A stretch of DNA of 64,000 nucleotides. It comes from Massilia oculi (GTDB lineage: Bacteria; Pseudomonadota; Gammaproteobacteria; Burkholderiales; Burkholderiaceae_D). The notes under the pieces are model-generated. The model worked only from the letters and a program-made list of their open reading frames with translations. It did not search any database and had not been told where the DNA came from. A program made the translations under genes and the position numbers. Shown here one piece after another: positions 1 to 7,411 of this stretch. Location of the stretch: contig NZ_CP029343.1 of assembly GCF_003143515.1 (NCBI RefSeq), positions 1,612,001 through 1,676,000 on the forward strand, in the 5' to 3' direction. The number at the start of each line of letters is the position of its first letter. Position 1 is the first letter of the stretch.

Positions 1-1350
1 CAGGTGAAGGCCGCGATGGAAGTCAGCCAAACCGACTGGCAGGGCAACCCGATGTCATATCGATCGCAACGTGATCTGCTCCGCCGGCGCTTCATGTTGG
101 ACCTGAAAAATGCAGTCTTTGCGGTCAAAGATGCTGCGCTGCTGGCGGATATCGGTTCGTGCGTCGAATGCCCAAAGCGCAGCGGCAACCAGGAGGAAGC
201 CTTCGAGAGCGAAAACCACGCTAACCTCTGCACCGATCCTGACTGTTTCGCCGAGAAGACTGCTGCGCACTCGAAGAAGGCGAAGCAGAAGGCTGAGGAC
301 CGCGGCCATTCCGTCATCAGCGGCGAGGCAGCCAAGAAGATCATGCCGAACTCATACGGCAATCTCAAGGACGGCTATTCCGACGTCGATCGCGAGTTCT
401 ATGTCTCGGGCAGCGGCTCGACGAGCTACCGCAAGATCCTCGGCAAACAGACCCCAAAGGGCGTGCTGCTGGAGAGCCCGTTCGAGCCAGGCAAGCTCAT
501 CACCATTGCCAAGACCGACGAGCTGGAAGACCTGGTGACGCAAGTTGCCGGCAGCGGCAAGACCGAGGCATCGGCAGCCGCGAAGCAAAAGGCCCAGGAG
601 AAGCAGAAGGAGCAGGCGGCCGCGCTCGAGAAGCGCTACCGCCGCGAACTGTTTGTATCCATCCGCGACGCCGGCCGAATCGAGGATACCCCGATCAATG
701 AGCAGGAGGTGGCCGCCCTCCTGTTCCGGAACTCCCCCAACTCCGAAGACGGCTTCATCCGGAAGCTCTACGGCTGGACCGGCAAAGAATTCGAATCGGG
801 CACTTGGGACGGAAAGTATGTCACCGGAACGAACAGAATTTGCGACGCAATCCGCCAGATGACACCTGAAGCGGCACGTCAGCTGATCCGCGACATGACC
901 CTCATCCGCGAACTGGAAGTCAGCACCTACTCATACAGCAAAGCGGACCGTCCGACGCTCATGCTTGCCGCTGCAGAGCGTCTCGGCATCGATGCCGAGG
1001 CCATGAAGTCGGCACTGAACAAGGAAGCCAAGCAGCTGGCTGACGAGAAGGCGGCGAAGAAGGCAAGGGCCGCGAGCAAGGGCAAGGCCGCGACGCCCGC
1101 ACAGGCGGTTCTGCCAGAGGTAGCGAAACACGACAAGAGCGCGACGGCGCCTGCAGCAGAAGCCGATTCAAAGGCCCGCGCTGCATCGACCGAGGTGCGC
1201 TATCGGCATCCGGATCTCACGCAAACTTGGACCGGCCGTGGCCGTGCGCCGAAGTGGGTCCGCGACTGGATCGACGCCGGCAAGACCCTCGATAGCCTGC
1301 AGGTGTCGCCTGCTCCCGCAGCACCTCTCCAGGCGCAGGTAATGCAATGA
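1..1350 (+). CDS. ParB/RepB/Spo0J-like partition protein, 5' truncated by window edge
   Basis: The frame is open from base 1, so the true start is upstream; a GTG at 4 is probably internal. The visible ~449 residues look like the C-terminal part of ParB-family proteins carried by Burkholderiales plasmids and islands. A Cys cluster (CVECPKR near residue 53, then a CTDPDC block) fits the CxxCPKRTGN-type metal-binding element of that group. It is followed by an Ala/Lys/Glu-rich coiled stretch and a basic C-terminal end (RGRAPKWVRDWIDAGK). The ParB nuclease-like and HTH domains would be upstream. Role inferred: partition or DNA-binding regulation of the element. The next gene overlaps by 4 nt (ATGA), which suggests one operon. 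Confidence 0.7.
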   Translation, partial: QVKAAMEVSQTDWQGNPMSYRSQRDLLRRRFMLDLKNAVFAVKDAALLADIGSCVECPKRSGNQEEAFESENHANLCTDPDCFAEKTAAHSKKAKQKAEDRGHSVISGEAAKKIMPNSYGNLKDGYSDVDREFYVSGSGSTSYRKILGKQTPKGVLLESPFEPGKLITIAKTDELEDLVTQVAGSGKTEASAAAKQKAQEKQKEQAAALEKRYRRELFVSIRDAGRIEDTPINEQEVAALLFRNSPNSEDGFIRKLYGWTGKEFESGTWDGKYVTGTNRICDAIRQMTPEAARQLIRDMTLIRELEVSTYSYSKADRPTLMLAAAERLGIDAEAMKSALNKEAKQLADEKAAKKARAASKGKAATPAQAVLPEVAKHDKSATAPAAEADSKARAASTEVRYRHPDLTQTWTGRGRAPKWVRDWIDAGKTLDSLQVSPAPAAPLQAQVMQ

Positions 1351-1601
1351 CGTTGAGCGAACAAAGCGTGAGCGCGATCGCCAGGGCCCTGCTTAATGAC
1401 CGCAAGACCCTGGTCGAGAGCCTTGAGTTCTGGAGCGACCCCGGCCGCGCCCGTCGATATCCAAACCGCCACGCGGCAATCGTGGCCGACCTGGACGAGA
1501 ACGCGAGTGCATTGGCCGAGCTCGCCGAGGGCTTCGCTCCTTGGCTAAAACAGCGTAACGACTGGCCGACCATCGCTCGCACTATCCCAGCAAAACACTG
1601 A
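1347..1601 (+). CDS. Hypothetical protein (84 aa), island operon
   Basis: This small acidic, helix-rich protein has no family I recognise. It begins at an ATG overlapping the stop of the ParB-like gene (ATGA), so translation is probably coupled. It contains an Asn-Asp-Arg-Lys segment and a WSDPGRARRYPNR patch, with no Cys cluster, signal peptide or membrane segment. It ends 9 nt before the DUF5906-type gene, so it belongs to the same transcript. Its position suggests an accessory replication or maintenance role, but nothing in the sequence proves it. Confidence 0.6.
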   Translation: MTLSEQSVSAIARALLNDRKTLVESLEFWSDPGRARRYPNRHAAIVADLDENASALAELAEGFAPWLKQRNDWPTIARTIPAKH

Positions 1602-1610
1602 AAGCACGCT

Positions 1611-2396
1611 ATGAAAAACACCCTGAACACTGCCCTTATCAACTTCAGCGATGCAGCCGCCCGCAACTTGGCAGCGCCCATTGCAGCCGTCAATGCAGCT
1701 TGCGAAGCCCTCAAGGCGATGATCACGCCGGCAGCGGCGCCGGCGATCGCCGCACGGCCAGCGCACTGCGGCAACATCATGACGCTGCTGGCCCACCTGT
1801 GCGACATGCACGACGAGCTGCAGCTATGGATCCTCCGCTGGCTGGCGTACCCGCTGCGAAACCCTGGCGCCAGGATGTCTACCGCCTTGGTCTTCAATGG
1901 CAGCGAAGGCTCGGGCAAATCGCTGTTCATGAATTTCGTCGTCGCCGAGATCTACGGCGATAGTGCCGCAAAAATCCGGCCACGCGACTTGCATAGCACG
2001 TTCAATGGATGGATGGAAGGTGCGAGCCTGGCCGTGGTCGACGGTGGTTTCGCCCGATCGCATATCGCAAAGATGAAGGCTGCGATGACGGCCCAATCGT
2101 TCGTCATCGAGCGCAAGGGACAAACTTCGCGCATGGTGTCGAACCGGCTGAATTTCATCTATGTCACCAGCACCCCTGACTTCCTGCCGGCCGACATCGG
2201 CAACCGCCGGTTCACGGTCATCGAAGTGCCGCCCCGGCAGCAGCGCGCCTTCTACCAGGCTGTGGTGCACGAGATCGCCGAGGGCGGCGTCGACGCGTTT
2301 CGTGACTACCTGATGCACGGCCTCGACATGGGCGAGTTTAACGAGCGCACCCCTCCACCAGCTGGCATATTCTTCGACGATGGGAGGACCGCATGA
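1611..2396 (+). CDS. DUF5906-type NTPase/primase-helicase domain protein (short form)
   Basis: The 261 residues match the NTPase part of DUF5906 proteins, which form the helicase-like half of plasmid and phage primases. A conserved WLAYPLRNPGARMSTAL lead-in precedes the Walker A motif GSEGSGKS (residues 97-104). A hydrophobic strand ends in VVDG (Asp144) where family members normally have a DE Walker B pair, and a FIYVTSTPD...GNRRFTVIEV block follows, where sensor residues lie. The usual N-terminal primase-like region is missing, and the Walker B glutamate is replaced by Gly. It may therefore bind rather than efficiently hydrolyse NTP, or be a remodelled derivative. It overlaps the next gene by 4 nt. 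Confidence 0.65.
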   Translation: MKNTLNTALINFSDAAARNLAAPIAAVNAACEALKAMITPAAAPAIAARPAHCGNIMTLLAHLCDMHDELQLWILRWLAYPLRNPGARMSTALVFNGSEGSGKSLFMNFVVAEIYGDSAAKIRPRDLHSTFNGWMEGASLAVVDGGFARSHIAKMKAAMTAQSFVIERKGQTSRMVSNRLNFIYVTSTPDFLPADIGNRRFTVIEVPPRQQRAFYQAVVHEIAEGGVDAFRDYLMHGLDMGEFNERTPPPAGIFFDDGRTA

Positions 2397-2629
2397 GCCT
2401 GCTGGCGAGCGACTACGTAGGCCCGGTGGCCGGCGGCAGCGTGGTGTATGTGATCGTCGGCGATCGCGCGAAGTTCGATCAGATCGCCCGACCAGTGACC
2501 GAACACCCTGCAGGCCCTGCCGGCAGGGTGTTGACGAAGACCATAGGGGCCACCGCGCGCAGCGAAGACGGTCTAGTCATTTTCCAGCACTGGCCTGACA
2601 GCTCGATCAGCCAGGGGGAGAAACCATGA
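2393..2629 (+). CDS. Hypothetical protein (78 aa), island operon
   Basis: This small protein with no recognised domain starts at an ATG overlapping the preceding stop (ATGA) and ends by overlapping the next start in the same way. The sequence alternates short beta-like stretches (SVVYVIVGD, LVIFQHWPD) with Gly/Pro turns, suggesting a compact beta-rich fold. The four-base overlaps on both sides are the main support that it is translated. Confidence 0.55.
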   Translation: MSLLASDYVGPVAGGSVVYVIVGDRAKFDQIARPVTEHPAGPAGRVLTKTIGATARSEDGLVIFQHWPDSSISQGEKP

Positions 2630-2862
2630 CGGGCCCTGTACCAGGCACCCAGGACGAGCCGAACGACCCAACCGCGTACAGGCATCACCTGTTACTGCTC
2701 AAGTCCATGCACTGTGCTCGCCCAGTGGTGCATGAAGGGCTGAAGCAGTTCATCAGCTGCTTGACGGCTAACCGCGACGGCGGGCGCATCTCGATGACCG
2801 TCTACCTGGCCGGCAAGGTCGGAGGCTTCGACAGCTCCGAAATTCAGATCATGGAGGGATAG
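2626..2862 (+). CDS. Hypothetical protein (78 aa), island operon
   Basis: I do not recognise this protein. It starts on an ATGA overlap with the previous gene and ends 3 nt before the Cys-rich ORF. A helical middle (HHLLLLKSMHC...LKQFISCL) is followed by a beta-like end (ISMTVYLAGKVGG). There is no signal peptide. Membership of the tightly packed island operon is the main evidence that it is real. Confidence 0.55.
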   Translation: MTGPVPGTQDEPNDPTAYRHHLLLLKSMHCARPVVHEGLKQFISCLTANRDGGRISMTVYLAGKVGGFDSSEIQIMEG

Positions 2863-2865
2863 CTT

Positions 2866-3078
2866 ATGTCCATCGCGATTTTCACGACATTGCTGCAACC
2901 GCTGCAGGCGGGCCTCAACAGGATCACCCAAGCCCTGCCGCAAGACACCTGCACCCACGACTGCAGCCAGGGCCGTCGCTGCACGTGCTCGCATCGATGC
3001 GAACCGCGCTGCGCGGCCAGCGGCGAGCGAGCTGGCCAGCCGCACAAGGGTACCTGCCCATTCAAGAATTTTGCTTAA
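2866..3078 (+). CDS. Small Cys-rich hypothetical protein (70 aa)
   Basis: After a hydrophobic-helical N-terminus the last 45 residues contain eight Cys and several His (CTHDC, CTCSHRCEPRC, then a late GTC). This pattern suggests a small zinc- or iron-sulfur-binding knuckle, although no named family comes to mind. It follows the previous gene by 3 nt. Its end runs 8 nt into the longest version of the next ORF but not into that gene's preferred ATG. Function unknown; a DNA- or RNA-binding adaptor is one possibility. Confidence 0.5.
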   Translation: MSIAIFTTLLQPLQAGLNRITQALPQDTCTHDCSQGRRCTCSHRCEPRCAASGERAGQPHKGTCPFKNFA

Positions 3079-3097
3079 TCAAGTTACCGAGCCTCAC

Positions 3098-3325
3098 ATG
3101 CAAACCGAATTCATGCTCCTGTCGATCTACAACAAGCCACGCCTGACCCTCAAGGAGGTCTGCCAGGCGATCGGCATGTCGTTGAAGACCGCGTACAACC
3201 ACCGGTCGGCCCAGACCTTCCCTATCCCGATGTCGGGCGACCCGCTGCACGCCGACATCCGCGATGTAGCGGCATACGTCGACGAACTCCGCGAGGCTGG
3301 AAAGAAGCCCGCTGCAAATACGTGA
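3098..3325 (+). CDS. Small HTH protein, PrtN/AlpA-like
   Basis: The 75-residue protein begins at ATG 3098. A TTG at 3071 would add nine residues and overlap the Cys-rich gene, so the ATG is preferred. The segment LTLKEVCQAIGMSLKTAYNHR (residues ~16-36) reads as a helix-turn-helix of the kind seen in AlpA/excisionase-like and pyocin-activator-like (PrtN) small regulators. A PIPMSGDPLHADIRDVAAYVDE tail resembles the wing and helix of those proteins. It probably regulates island genes or excision. Which of the two families is uncertain. Confidence 0.55.
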   Translation: MQTEFMLLSIYNKPRLTLKEVCQAIGMSLKTAYNHRSAQTFPIPMSGDPLHADIRDVAAYVDELREAGKKPAANT

Positions 3326-3356
3326 GTTCTCACGGTAATTCCTGAGCGAGATCAAC

Positions 3357-3623
3357 ATGGAATGGACCAACGACGAAGACACGCAGCCGGCACAAAGCTC
3401 ACCAAAGCGTGGTCGACCTCCGACCGGCAAGGCCATGAGTGCGGCCGATCGGCAGGCTCGCCGCGTGGCCAAGCTTGAGGCTGAGGGCAAAGCCCTACTG
3501 CCGCGCATTGCGGTTTCACGCGAAGTACAACAGGCCCTGTACAAGTTCATCCAGTTCAAGGACATGACGCTCGGGGATGCGCTAGAACGGATCCTTCACG
3601 ACCGCCTCATCCGCAAACGCTAG
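3357..3623 (+). CDS. Small putative DNA-binding protein with AT-hook-like motif
   Basis: This 88-residue basic protein contains a PKRGRPPTGK segment (residues ~18-27), which fits an AT-hook core (RGRP). An Arg-rich helix (SAADRQARRVAKLE) follows, then a C-terminal SREVQQALYKF...LGDALERILHDRL part that looks like a ribbon-helix-helix-type dimer helix pair. Such proteins usually act as small repressors on plasmids and prophages. It ends shortly before a bidirectional hairpin terminator, so it closes the plus-strand island operon. Confidence 0.5.
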   Translation: MEWTNDEDTQPAQSSPKRGRPPTGKAMSAADRQARRVAKLEAEGKALLPRIAVSREVQQALYKFIQFKDMTLGDALERILHDRLIRKR

Positions 3624-3655
3624 GCCACACGGGCCAACGCTTCACCGCAAATGAA

Positions 3656-3678
3656 AAAGCCACCCCGCAGGTGGCTTT
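3656..3678. terminator. Bidirectional hairpin terminator
   Basis: A perfect 9-bp inverted repeat (AAAGCCACC / GGTGGCTTT) encloses a 5-nt loop, with A residues on one side and T residues on the other. It sits between the end of the plus-strand AT-hook gene (3623) and the end of the minus-strand PH-domain gene (3709), so it can serve both. Confidence 0.8.
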
Positions 3679-3708
3679 CAGCAGCAGCCGCAGAACGGCA
3701 CCCATCCC

Positions 3709-4134
3709 TTACGCAGCAGCGCGCTCGCGCTCCTCGGTCATCTCGTTCAGCTTCGAACGGAAGGTCAACGGATCCGAAATATTCGGGATCGGGGCCTGCG
3801 GGCCACCAGCGCCCGACACAACGATGCTGCCGAAGTTCAGCATACGTCCGACGATCGACTGGTCGACCTGCACGCTCTCTACCTTGCTGTTCTTCAGTTC
3901 GACAGTCTTGCGACTGATCAGGCCGAATTTGGCAACTACCCTCTTATTGGTGATGACCAGCTCGGTAGTCAGGACATTAATCACAGCGACCGCGATAAAG
4001 ACTAGGCCCAGGCCCATGAGGCCGATGGTGAGCAGCCCGAGAAGGAACAGTAACCATTGCGATACCCAAGACACCTGCGCCTCATAGACGACCTTCTCAT
4101 CGACGTCCAGATTGCGATTGACATACGATCCCAT
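3709..4134 (-). CDS. Bacterial PH-domain (YdbS/YdbT-like) membrane protein
   Basis: The 141-residue protein from ATG 4134 begins GSYVNRNLDVDEKVVYEAQVSW, a typical opening of bPH2-domain proteins, and continues with two closely spaced hydrophobic helices (LLFLLGLLTIGLMGLGLVFIAVAVI). The PH-like part follows: TELVITNKRVVAKFGLISR, then KVESVQVDQSIVGRMLNFGSIVVSG. The longer frame to 4212 adds unlike residues and is not preferred. Members are inner-membrane proteins of unclear function. As the only membrane protein among island genes it may be cargo. It faces the plus-strand operon across a shared terminator. Confidence 0.8.
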   Translation of the reverse strand: MGSYVNRNLDVDEKVVYEAQVSWVSQWLLFLLGLLTIGLMGLGLVFIAVAVINVLTTELVITNKRVVAKFGLISRKTVELKNSKVESVQVDQSIVGRMLNFGSIVVSGAGGPQAPIPNISDPLTFRSKLNEMTEERERAAA

Positions 4135-4380
4135 TTCAAAATCCCTAATAGTTGTAATAGAGAAATAATACTCTAATATCCTAGAGGGACTACCCGTGAA
4201 GAGATCGTTCATGCACTGAGCATAGCGCCCTTACAACAGCTTAACGAATTGACGAGTTGGAGACGCGCGGTCAGGTCCGCTTTCGACCCAAAGCAGCCGC
4301 TCACCAGCCTCGCACCGGCCTAAGCTCGCAGTTCCTTAATCCGGCGCGAACTATAATGGCTTGGTACAGCACTCGGGAGA

Positions 4381-5499
4381 TCAGGCTATTCGCGTGTAGG
4401 TTTTTCCATCCAGGACTCGTTTCACTTGATCCACGTCTTTCGCCCCGATGCGGACGTAGATCTCATCGGGGGTGTGGTAGTTGGCGAGCTCACGTATTGC
4501 CTTGACTTGAACGACAGACAAGCGCCCGTCGCGGCCACAAATCTGCGCTATTGCCCAGTCGTTGTCCTTCCACTTTTCGGCGACCCATGGCGCCGGTAAG
4601 CCCAAGCGTGGATGGTCATTCAGCCACTTTTGCAGAATCTTGTCGCGGTCATCGGGCAGAGGAACCGCGCCTTTCGAAATCAATCCGTTTTCACGTAGGT
4701 AACGTAGCCCGCTCTTTCCGCCTGGTACCATATTTAGCCGGCGTTCATCATCCCAATGGCCTTCTACGAGAAACTCTTCCCCCTCGTAGAGCTGCTCCAG
4801 ATCGTCGGTAATAGCCATCACCTTGTGGTGCACGTACGTAAGACGCCCACCCTCTTGCTCCTCTCGAAATCGACGATGGAAAAGCAATGGACTGCCCGTT
4901 CCGATCGCGCGACGGTGCTCGGACCAGCGCTTTTGCCAGCTTCGGGTGGACACCCCAACATAAAAGTACCCATCGTCAGGGTACGATGCACCATTGCCGA
5001 AGATGTGCTGGTAGAGGACGTATGCGCGTTCGGGGTAGTGCTTGGGCGATAGTAAGAAAACTGCGGGCACCGAAAATACAAGGCTAGGGCTCCTGACCGT
5101 GCTTTCGTCAATCTGCGTGGCTCCCCGCATGGCCGCAGCCAAATACACGGGGTCAGTAACAACTTCCACTGAAATCGTAGGTTGGACAGCTAACTCGCCT
5201 TCGCGCAAGGCGCCGAGTCCGTACTCTGGCTCGCGGTCCACAGTTCTATGCCCATCCATGAGCTTCTTGAACGGAGCGATGAACCCCTGACGGTCACTCA
5301 TGAATATCAGGCGCACCACGGGTATTACTTGGCCTGGCGTGAGCCTAAAAACACCGTGGGGATTCGCAGCCACCCGCGCCCATTCCAACCCGTAGGCGGA
5401 GCCCCGTATGAAGTCTTCGAGCAACTGCTCAACCTCGCGCCGCCGTCCAATCATCGACTTCGGGGCCAGATGCTCCCACCAAGCTTTGCTTAGCTTCAT
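4381..5499 (-). CDS. Putative GIY-YIG-like nuclease-domain protein
   Basis: This 372-residue cytosolic protein carries a central segment resembling a GIY-YIG nuclease core: a YVLYQ strand (160-164), YFYVGVS (178-184) and an RWSEH helix start (191-195). A later Glu-rich helix (EQLYEGEEFLVEG) could supply the metal-binding Glu. The first GIY is degenerate and separated from YFYVG by a longer loop than usual. The C-terminal ~80 residues contain a WAIAQICGRDG...VVQVKAIRELANY...PDEIYVRIG part that looks like a small HTH-like DNA-binding region. Flanked by gaps on both sides, it looks like element cargo such as a selfish or defence nuclease. The fold is suggested, not proven. Confidence 0.5.
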   Translation of the reverse strand: MKLSKAWWEHLAPKSMIGRRREVEQLLEDFIRGSAYGLEWARVAANPHGVFRLTPGQVIPVVRLIFMSDRQGFIAPFKKLMDGHRTVDREPEYGLGALREGELAVQPTISVEVVTDPVYLAAAMRGATQIDESTVRSPSLVFSVPAVFLLSPKHYPERAYVLYQHIFGNGASYPDDGYFYVGVSTRSWQKRWSEHRRAIGTGSPLLFHRRFREEQEGGRLTYVHHKVMAITDDLEQLYEGEEFLVEGHWDDERRLNMVPGGKSGLRYLRENGLISKGAVPLPDDRDKILQKWLNDHPRLGLPAPWVAEKWKDNDWAIAQICGRDGRLSVVQVKAIRELANYHTPDEIYVRIGAKDVDQVKRVLDGKTYTRIA

Positions 5500-5918
5500 A
5501 GAGTCACTTCCTATTCTTCAAAAGCCGGCAGGCCTAGCGCGTTATTGGTATCCCGGTTGAGAGCCAAGCTTGTACGTGTATAGACCCCACTCCCATACCA
5601 GCGCCGAACGAGCCATCTCCTTACGGGATATCACTGCACTCTAGCTGTACTGCTATCGCGATGATGAAAGCTCACAACACGCTTTAGACCATAGAGGCGA
5701 ACGGCGGCTTCTGGCCGAAAGCAGACGGTCGAGATGGGTCAGTGTACGGCACTACTCACGTTCAAACAAGCAAGCGACTTTATTAGGCGCTCGATACTTC
5801 CCGCTGTTCGGCGTTTGGCTAGCCCGCGCTTGAGTTGCACCTAATGCGACCCCAAGCATTTTCCCACTACTCCAAAATTACTCCAAACTCAACACACGCA
5901 CTATGGGGAATTGAATTC
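5500..5918. other. Gene-free island end next to the attachment junction
   Basis: No convincing coding sequence is present here. Near the right edge two copies of TACTCCAAA (5868-5876 and 5879-5887) lie 11 bp apart, one helical turn, 30-50 bp from the dusA junction. That fits arm-type integrase or excisionase sites. The rest shows only scattered stops and no clear promoter or RNA. Confidence 0.45.
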
Positions 5919-6008
5919 CTCGGTCCAGTCCATCATGGGGGCGACCGAGAGGCGGCGCGATGGCAGTACAGGGGCGGCGGCGCCCGGAATGGTCGAGGTG
6001 AGGCTCAT
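5919..6008 (-). pseudogene. dusA: dusA 5' fragment (tRNA-dihydrouridine synthase A), left by integration
   Basis: From an ATG at 6008 the minus strand encodes about 29 residues ending RRLSVAPMMDWT, the hallmark N-terminal FMN-site motif of DusA (normally followed by DRHCR). The match ends after ACCGA at about 5919-5922, and the frame then meets a stop at 5901 after EEFNSP. DusA reduces U20/U20a in tRNA with FMN and NADPH. This is the remnant that stays with the native upstream DNA after site-specific insertion; an intact dusA with an element-supplied 5' end is expected beyond the left side of the window. No strong ribosome site is seen before the ATG. Confidence 0.8.
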
Positions 6009-6370
6009 GCTGGAGGGTCTGGTCGCCGCCAACCGGGGCGACGGATACTGTCGGGAACCAGTAATGATAAGCGAAACCGGCCCGCGCCGCATTCTGTAAT
6101 GCAGGCAAGCTTGGCGAAGAAGCACATTCTATTCGAGCGCCACGACCACGCACGCCGACATCGACCAGGCGTGGAGCACGTCAGGTCTGACATTCGGACG
6201 CGGACTCCGTCCGGATGCAGGAACCGCCCGCATGGCGTATCGAAAAACGCCATGCCTAGCCATACGAAGATGCGATTTCACTTCCCTCCCCGCATGCCTC
6301 ACCATGCCTGACTGGAAACAACACCGCCGTCCCCGGCCATGCCTCCCCGGCATCTTCACCGACCCCTGAC
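6009..6370. other. Intergenic region with inverted repeats (original dusA upstream DNA)
   Basis: I see no gene here. It should contain the native dusA promoter (minus) and the promoter of the S33 peptidase (plus). Two inverted repeats stand out: a 9-bp perfect one, GCATGGCGT / ACGCCATGC, with an 8-nt spacer (6230-6255), and CGGACG / CGTCCG (6195-6213). Neither is followed by a T-run, so they look like operator or structural sites rather than terminators. Confidence 0.4.
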
Positions 6371-7411
6371 ATGAAAAACATCCTGATCGCCTGCCTCCTC
6401 GCAGGCCTGGGCCTGGCCAGCGCCAGCGCCGCCGAACCATCCCGGCAAGAACAGCAGCTCGCCAAGCAGGCCCTCCCCGGCGTGCGCATGATCCCGATCC
6501 ACACGCCCAAAGGCGATTTCAAGGTCTGGACCCGCCGCATGGGCGACAACCCGACCGTCAAGGTGCTGCTGCTCCACGGCGGTCCCGGGTCGACGCACGA
6601 ATACTTCAAAACCTTCGACGACCACTTCCCTGGCGCGTCGATCGAGTATTACTACTACGACCAACTGGGGTCATGGTTCAGCGACCAGCCCGACGACCCG
6701 TCGCTGAACACCGTCGAGCGCTTTACCGACGAAGTGGAGCAGGTGCGCAAGGCGCTCGGCCTGGACAAGGACAATTTCTACCTGCTGGGGCATTCCTGGG
6801 GCGGCATCCTGGCCATCGAATATGCCCTCGCCCACCCCGGCAAGCTGAAAGGCCTGGTGATCTCGAACATGATGGCCAGCGCCCCGGCCTACAACGCCTA
6901 CGCGCAAAACGTGCTCGCGCCGCAGATCGACCCGGCCGTGCTGGCCGAGGTGCGCAAGCTCGAGGCCGAGGGCAAGACCGACGATCCACGCTATATGGAA
7001 CTCCTGATCCCGCATTTCTACGAGCGTCACATCCTGCGCAGGCCGCTCGCGGAGTTACCCGAACCGGTGCTGCGCAGCTTCGGGCATCTGAACCAGAAAA
7101 TCTACAAGCCGATGCAGGGACCGAGCGAGCTGGGCATCTCGGGCCTGCTCGCGAACTGGGACCGCTTCGACGACCTCGAACGGATCGACGTGCCCACACT
7201 GGTCGTCGGCGCACGCTACGACACCATGGACCCGGCCCATATGAAGAAGATGGCGCAACGCCTGCCGCAGGGACAATTCCTGTACTGCGAAAACGGCAGC
7301 CACATGGCCATGTACGACGACGCCGGCTGCTATTTCGATGGCCTGCTCAAGTTCCTGCGCGGCGCGCCCGCACGCACGGCGGTCAAGCCGCGCTCCCTGC
7401 GCTCATACTGA
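6371..7411 (+). CDS. Proline iminopeptidase-like S33 hydrolase, exported
   Basis: This 346-residue alpha/beta hydrolase has an N-terminal signal peptide (MKNILIACLLAGLGLASASA, cleavage expected near residue 20). The oxyanion motif HGGPG is at 69-73 and the nucleophile elbow GHSWGG at 140-145 (Ser142). Asp284 in ARYDTMD and His311 in NGSHM complete a likely triad. This layout matches the proline iminopeptidase / tricorn-interacting S33 group, which releases N-terminal Pro or other residues from short peptides. Export is unusual for classical PIP and suggests periplasmic peptide trimming. A strong terminator follows at 7437-7477. Confidence 0.85.
   Translation: MKNILIACLLAGLGLASASAAEPSRQEQQLAKQALPGVRMIPIHTPKGDFKVWTRRMGDNPTVKVLLLHGGPGSTHEYFKTFDDHFPGASIEYYYYDQLGSWFSDQPDDPSLNTVERFTDEVEQVRKALGLDKDNFYLLGHSWGGILAIEYALAHPGKLKGLVISNMMASAPAYNAYAQNVLAPQIDPAVLAEVRKLEAEGKTDDPRYMELLIPHFYERHILRRPLAELPEPVLRSFGHLNQKIYKPMQGPSELGISGLLANWDRFDDLERIDVPTLVVGARYDTMDPAHMKKMAQRLPQGQFLYCENGSHMAMYDDAGCYFDGLLKFLRGAPARTAVKPRSLRSY

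Follow-up and report, generated by a model that had tools for sequence, protein, structure and literature searches.

The window, the whole stretch of 64,000 nucleotides, covers bases 1612001-1676000 of the single-contig 5.84-Mb genome that we analysed. Its left part holds the end of a prophage and, running into it on the minus strand, the first codons of a dusA gene. The features at this junction are as follows (window positions).

1..5945: right-hand part of a 36.5-kb dusA prophage, attR core included (core repeat and prophage genes)
1..1350, plus strand: 3' part of the gene for a 655-aa prophage protein with ParB N-terminal and helix-turn-helix domains and an H-NS C-terminal domain
1611..2396, plus strand: VapE/DUF5906 primase-helicase-like protein, 261 aa (domain and PHROG matches)
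3098..3325, plus strand: likely excisionase of the RdfN/PrtN kind, helix-turn-helix (listed frame from TTG 3071; first ATG 3098)
3709..4212, minus strand: accessory prophage gene with a bacterial PH domain (PHROG 3707, 'membrane-flanked domain')
4381..5499, minus strand: accessory prophage gene at the right end, putative, with a weak homing-endonuclease match over residues 175-270 (PHROG 314, E=5e-7)
5865..5885, plus strand: putative arm-type repeat CACTACTCCAAAATTACTCCA, two TACTCC copies 11 bp apart (5868, 5879)
5901..6008, minus strand: displaced start of the host dusA: MSLTSTIPGAAAPVLPSRRLSVAPMMDWT (29 host codons), followed by six element codons (EEFNSP) and a stop
5920..5945: attR core repeat TCGGTCCAGTCCATCATGGGGGCGAC, identical at 25 of 26 positions to the attL core in the resident dusA
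6009..6090, minus strand: host dusA upstream region, now severed from dusA (alignment)

A dusA gene in two halves

An earlier note on this DNA had read about 29 dusA codons on the minus strand that enter foreign sequence and a stop. The junction is real: from position 6008, MSLTSTIPGAAAPVLPSRRLSVAPMMDWT is followed by EEFNSP and a stop codon. The note had also predicted that a full-length dusA on the minus strand and a tyrosine integrase would be found to the left (within ~100 kb), and both lie side by side 36.5 kb to the left of the stub. The resident dusA (C1:1580443-1581435, minus strand, 330 aa) carries the motif of the stub and scores 536.8 bits against the NCBIfam DusA model (cut-off 269). 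Its N-terminus reads MAFGKRKLSVAPMMDWTDRHCR, with an element-supplied MAFGKRK in place of MSLTSTIPGAAAPVLPSRR, and the host-type start is absent from it. Divergent from it is the gene of a 339-aa tyrosine recombinase (Pfam PF00589, 81.2 bits; PHROG 1), whose ATG (1581536) stands 100 bp from the dusA start (1581435). Residues R205, H294, R297, H320 and Y329 of the integrase, which we take to be the catalytic residues, are invariant in all 12 aligned rows (its own included; 10 genomes of the genus). A simple scan for sigma-70-like promoters found none in the interval between dusA and the integrase, nor upstream of the old dusA start.

The two dusA pieces share a 26-bp direct repeat with one mismatch, at genome positions 1581383-1581408 and 1617920-1617945 (window 5920-5945), which codes for VAPMMDWT of DusA. 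From the positions of these two core copies the element extends over about C1:1581383-1617945 and measures 36.5 kb. The direct repeat that the earlier note had proposed, from CGCC-TCTCGG to ACCGA, thus exists, but not over that extent: the real core is shorter, and the CGCC-TCTCGG part lies largely outside it. Similarly, an integrated element does end within dusA, as had been claimed, while the 'island' is better described as a prophage.

Relatives of the host carry the same start on an unbroken dusA (84% identity in G010, 84% in G059 and 77% in G035 over residues 1-31), which favours the reading of the stub as a junction. When the two flanks are joined in silico, a 342-residue DusA open reading frame results that begins with MSLTSTIPGAAAPVLPSRRLSVAPMMDWTDRHCRVF and resembles the DusA of these uninterrupted relatives. 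On the host side of the junction the joined frame is identical to theirs at 75/86 (G010), 75/86 (G059) and 73/86 (G035) residues, and on the body side at 144/150, 143/150 and 145/150, respectively. The resident dusA start of G005, itself an element carrier, is identical to the host side of the joined frame at only 41/85 residues, and the displaced end in G005 is 90% identical to our stub (residues 1-30). An upstream block within 6009..6090 is common, by alignment, to the three uninterrupted loci and to the displaced end of G005; over this block, at least, the right flank is therefore the host's own dusA upstream region. To look for synteny further out we used the abhydrolase gene that neighbours the stub (6371-7411); none of 61 dusA loci, most of which reach only ~2 kb upstream, gave a match at E 1e-10, so that synteny of the outer flank is supported as far as the dusA upstream block and no further. 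In G059, a weak match to the dusA start (57%, E=0.6), which may be due to chance, lies ~5.6 kb upstream of the intact host-type dusA (L107, G059:C3:627000-636000, near locus base 1131).

Gene content of the element

We scanned 30 proteins of the element against PHROGs, and 20 of them matched while 10 did not. The identified proteins include the small and large terminase subunits, a portal protein, a fusion of protease and capsid, minor tail proteins, a 1448-aa tape-measure protein, an endolysin, a CI-like repressor and a CII-like activator, together with primase-helicase proteins, a ParB/H-NS fusion and a DNA adenine methyltransferase. Because terminase, portal, capsid, tail, lysis and lysogeny genes lie between the two ends, the element is, judging from the gene content within its att boundaries, a tailed-phage prophage. 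Among the 30 scanned proteins we identified none as a major tail protein, a head-tail connector or a receptor-binding protein.

The gene of the 655-aa ParB/H-NS protein starts to the left of the window and spans C1:1611383-1613350, and a second protein of primase/helicase type (834 aa) is encoded on the minus strand at C1:1605660-1608164. The protein encoded at 4381..5499 matched nothing in Pfam, PADLOC or NCBIfam at the limits applied. The portal passes the cut-off of the NCBIfam lambda portal model, and the top-ranked phage match of the terminase is 40% identical. In its lambda-type portal and its CI- and CII-like regulators the element resembles the lambda-group siphophages, and its terminase resembles lambda-group terminases over 86-88% of its length at about 38-40% identity. 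It differs from this group in its target, dusA, and in that protease and capsid form one protein: a ClpP-like prohead protease and a major capsid protein are fused in 681 aa (C1:1596709-1598754; L008:2710-4755; NCBIfam NF045540).

Paired repeats inside the ends, and a candidate excisionase

At the right end, the copy of CACTACTCCAAAATTACTCCA is located within the element at a distance of 34 bp from the core. An exact copy is found at genome positions 1581516-1581536, 107 bp beyond the left core, where it runs into the integrase ATG. Among the 10 elements of the genus with an intact integrase, seven have paired short repeats 11 bp apart inside both ends. Their exact runs at a lag of 11 bp and their letters are as follows.

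This element: integrase side 7, far end 9, TACTCC
G045: integrase side 6, far end 6, TGCTAC
G005: integrase side 11, far end 10, TGGCAC
G011: integrase side 10, far end 7, TGCACAC
G016: integrase side 8, far end 7, TGCACAC
G025: integrase side 9, far end 7, TGCACAC
G036: integrase side 10, far end 6, TGCACAC

The letters match between the two ends of one element and differ between elements. In 5000 random 120-bp windows of our element, a lag-11 run of at least 7 occurred in 44 and of at least 6 in 112, a control that is only approximate because three overlapping windows were used on the integrase side. A run of 6, the length seen in G045, carries little weight, since runs of at least 6 also occur in the host-like locus G008 and in G051 and G052. 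Within the same 10 elements, the pair is absent at both ends in G017 and G027, and G056 has none by exact run. The far-end exact run of G019 is only 5, and the fossil loci G001, G004 and G028 have runs of 3-4.

Their position and the agreement between the two ends suggest that the paired repeats are putative arm-type sites of the integrase. Matched arm repeats may help to locate the ends of an integration even where no integrase survives. The exact core pattern, used as a search for right ends, missed 9 of 15. On the integrase side, TTCCCG also occurs in copies ~10 bp apart (genome C1 about 1581475-1581493); together with one ACTTCCCGC close to the right end (window 5796-5804), these could represent a further protein-binding site.

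The small helix-turn-helix protein encoded at 3071-3325 matches the excisionase family PHROG 1300 (E=1e-8), and against Pfam PrtN it reaches only E=0.03-0.04, below the cut-off. Homologues in G045, G005, G027 and the viral contig L151 match PHROG 1300 too, and the G027 homologue alone passes the PrtN cut-off. Among 62 genomes, a homologue was found in five: our own, G045, G005 and G027, all of which have an intact integrase at dusA, and, in partial form, G034, where it and the host-like dusA are on different contigs. The copy in G045 is 85% identical and lies ~1 kb from the displaced dusA end. We consider the product of 3098..3325 a likely candidate excisionase, although the call is a weak one.

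Relation to known dusA elements

The prophage in G045, with its integrase beside dusA, is a near relative (integrase 76%, terminase 84% and candidate excisionase 85% identical). Among 206 matching phage records (of 50,697), the top-ranked match of the integrase is 43% identical, and BcepIL02, BcepMigl, DC1 and a variant of mEp460 are among the matches listed; these four appear, by name or in close form, as carriers of dusA-associated integrases (DAI) in PMC4482086. Among eight relatives from named genomes, one of which is G045, dusA is present in the fetched locus in seven. Of nine relatives on viral contigs, four have dusA and four others begin at or inside the integrase gene. The ninth, L151 (integrase 44% identical), has an rdfN-like gene followed by arms, core, arms and integrase, and its locus gave no dusA match, which fits the attP form of an uninserted phage.

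DAI elements were described by Farrugia et al. in 2015, with short imperfect att repeats and with excision detected by PCR (PMC4482086). In that account, the island provides a new dusA 5' end and the old 5' end remains at the outer boundary; the att repeats have a 21-bp consensus and measure 26-28 bp in two mapped islands, and 48 of 94 dusA islands are prophages, with a mean size of 42.6 kb (PMC4482086). The present element is like them in its target gene, in the site at the 5' end, in an integrase adjoining the 5' end of dusA, in imperfect att repeats and in the fate of the two starts, one brought by the element and the old one left at its outer boundary, but it is a different phage, with an integrase and a terminase 43% and 40% identical to their top-ranked phage matches. 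We saw no counterpart of its paired arm repeats in PMC4482086, whose main text lacks the words 'arm', 'tandem' and 'excisionase'.

For dusA-specific elements, a PrtN-like RdfN has been demonstrated to be the excisionase (PMC8409611). IMEVchUSA3 and other dusA-specific SGI1-like elements described there are IncC-mobilizable, carry their PrtN-like RdfN across attP from int, and bring a new promoter sequence and an altered DusA N-terminus (PMC8409611). Unlike these, the present element is a phage, and its candidate excisionase matches Pfam PrtN only below the cut-off. The element is a new phage member of the dusA-specific elements described in 2015, whose mechanism of insertion is already known, and it brings a distantly related phage into the group that targets dusA.

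Model of integration

We observe complementary halves of dusA and a core repeat, an integrase, genes for virion and lysogeny functions within the element, and an unbroken dusA in relatives. The reading that a temperate phage has integrated into the host dusA at codons 22-29, with excision as a prediction, is very probably correct. That the stub marks the site used by dusA-associated integrases, as the earlier note held, is borne out by the split gene, the core repeat and the adjoining integrase, and the boundaries of the prophage are now fixed beyond what the window alone could show.

By analogy with the published family, the tyrosine integrase would recombine the core of the phage (attP) with the conserved part of dusA that codes for VAPMMDWT (attB). 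The phage would supply a new promoter and start for dusA, again as in that family, so that DusA would still be made, with a changed N-terminus, while the old dusA start would be left at the far end as a stub of 35 codons. Inside both ends the integrase would bind the paired arm sites, each made up of two short repeats spaced by one helical turn. The PrtN-like helix-turn-helix protein near the right end may drive excision, which would restore the original dusA.

It is possible, though rather unlikely, that this dusA prophage is defective and has lost excision or the formation of particles, a view to which the 10 of 30 scanned proteins without PHROG match and the expected tail and connector genes missing from our identifications lend some weight. 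However, the integrase, the excisionase candidate, the terminase, the portal, the capsid fusion, the tape measure and the endolysin have open frames, core and arms are present, and a near relative of the prophage exists in G045. With two full-length Dus-family genes in the genome (the second at C1:2103718-2104635), dus paralogues do occur, but it is exceedingly improbable that the stub arose by ordinary recombination as a dusA duplicate, decayed or partial, with phage genes nearby by coincidence. The stub and the resident gene are complementary halves with no more than the core in common, the host start is absent from the resident gene, the halves when joined give the gene of the relatives, and an integrase and arm repeats lie at the ends.

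Starts of dusA across the genus

We examined the dusA locus in 61 of 62 genomes, G055 having no clear dusA match, and surveyed integrases of this kind only. An intact integrase stands beside dusA in 10 of the 61 loci, and debris of an integrase in another 10 (33.9-209 bits). The best of 305 single-base shuffles scored 30.4 bits, and the best of the 41 real loci without assigned integrase or debris scored 25.4 (G061); the weakest accepted cases are G032 (33.9 bits, residues 64-126 only) and G004 (38.5 bits). Twelve loci have a short start like MKYRKRTLS and no trace of an integrase, and in three of them (G019, G021 and G044) a separate dusA stub persists, accompanied by arm-type repeats; the stub of G019 is on another contig. 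The remaining 29 loci were labelled host-like, including G051, although its start MKSEAYKSRRLS resembles that of the debris-bearing G020. Up to 32 of the 61 loci thus have an element-type start, 10 by an intact integrase, 10 by debris and 12 by resemblance, the four start labels having been set by hand from N-termini and tblastn scores.

In a tree built from 933 columns of the dusA body by a quick search, with no bootstraps, which reflects the gene and not the species, the host-like label requires 14 changes, 11 of which are forced by well-supported (starred) branches. Shuffled labels required 20.5 changes on average, and one shuffle in 500 was as low as 14; because the label is more clustered than in 499 of 500 shuffles, it is also partly inherited. 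Of 16 displaced dusA ends, 15 were read by script, and seven of these 15 are themselves of the short type (G016, G017, G019, G021, G056 and both of G025); the end in G027, missed by the script and outside this count, reads MKDSKRKLS by eye. The displaced end of G016, MTYRPRTLS, equals the resident start of G050, one of the 12 loci without integrase trace, and that of G017, MKDSKRKLS, equals the resident start of the debris-bearing G018.

The 14 label changes and the seven displaced ends of the short type suggest successive replacements of the start. We consider it somewhat probable, given hand-set labels and a gene tree, that the dusA start in this genus is a replaceable part, donated by successive elements and kept after their decay. 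If so, each integration would overwrite the promoter and the first codons, the donated start would become the permanent beginning of the gene, and dusA starts might record layers of past infections. The survey suggests more broadly that mobile elements repeatedly provide a tRNA-modification gene with its first codons, and perhaps with its promoter, and that the gene retains them once the elements have decayed.

The short starts without integrase could instead be ordinary host variation rather than captured phage starts. We think this less plausible, with perhaps a minor chance of being right. It would account for the 12 loci that have a short start without integrase trace, nine of which (G002, G022, G026, G030, G042, G043, G050, G052 and G054) had no separate stub fetched or identified, and it agrees with the clustering of the host-like label, by which starts are partly inherited. 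On the other hand, closely similar short starts stand beside integrase debris in G001, G004, G012, G018, G024, G028 and G031 and beside intact integrases in G000 and G045, the three loci G019, G021 and G044 have a separate stub with arm-type repeats, and the host-like label still needs its 14 changes on the tree, 11 of them forced. Donation by successive elements remains the simplest reading.

In G016:C1, dusA and integrase occur near both contig ends (3899; 5178571 of 5188430), and we set the second copy aside as probably an untrimmed circular overlap, not two copies. In G025, two integrases of this kind and two dusA stubs share one contig with its dusA (L118, G025:C26:24000-29500; L074), and their arms and starts suggest that two or three elements may be stacked at the same site.
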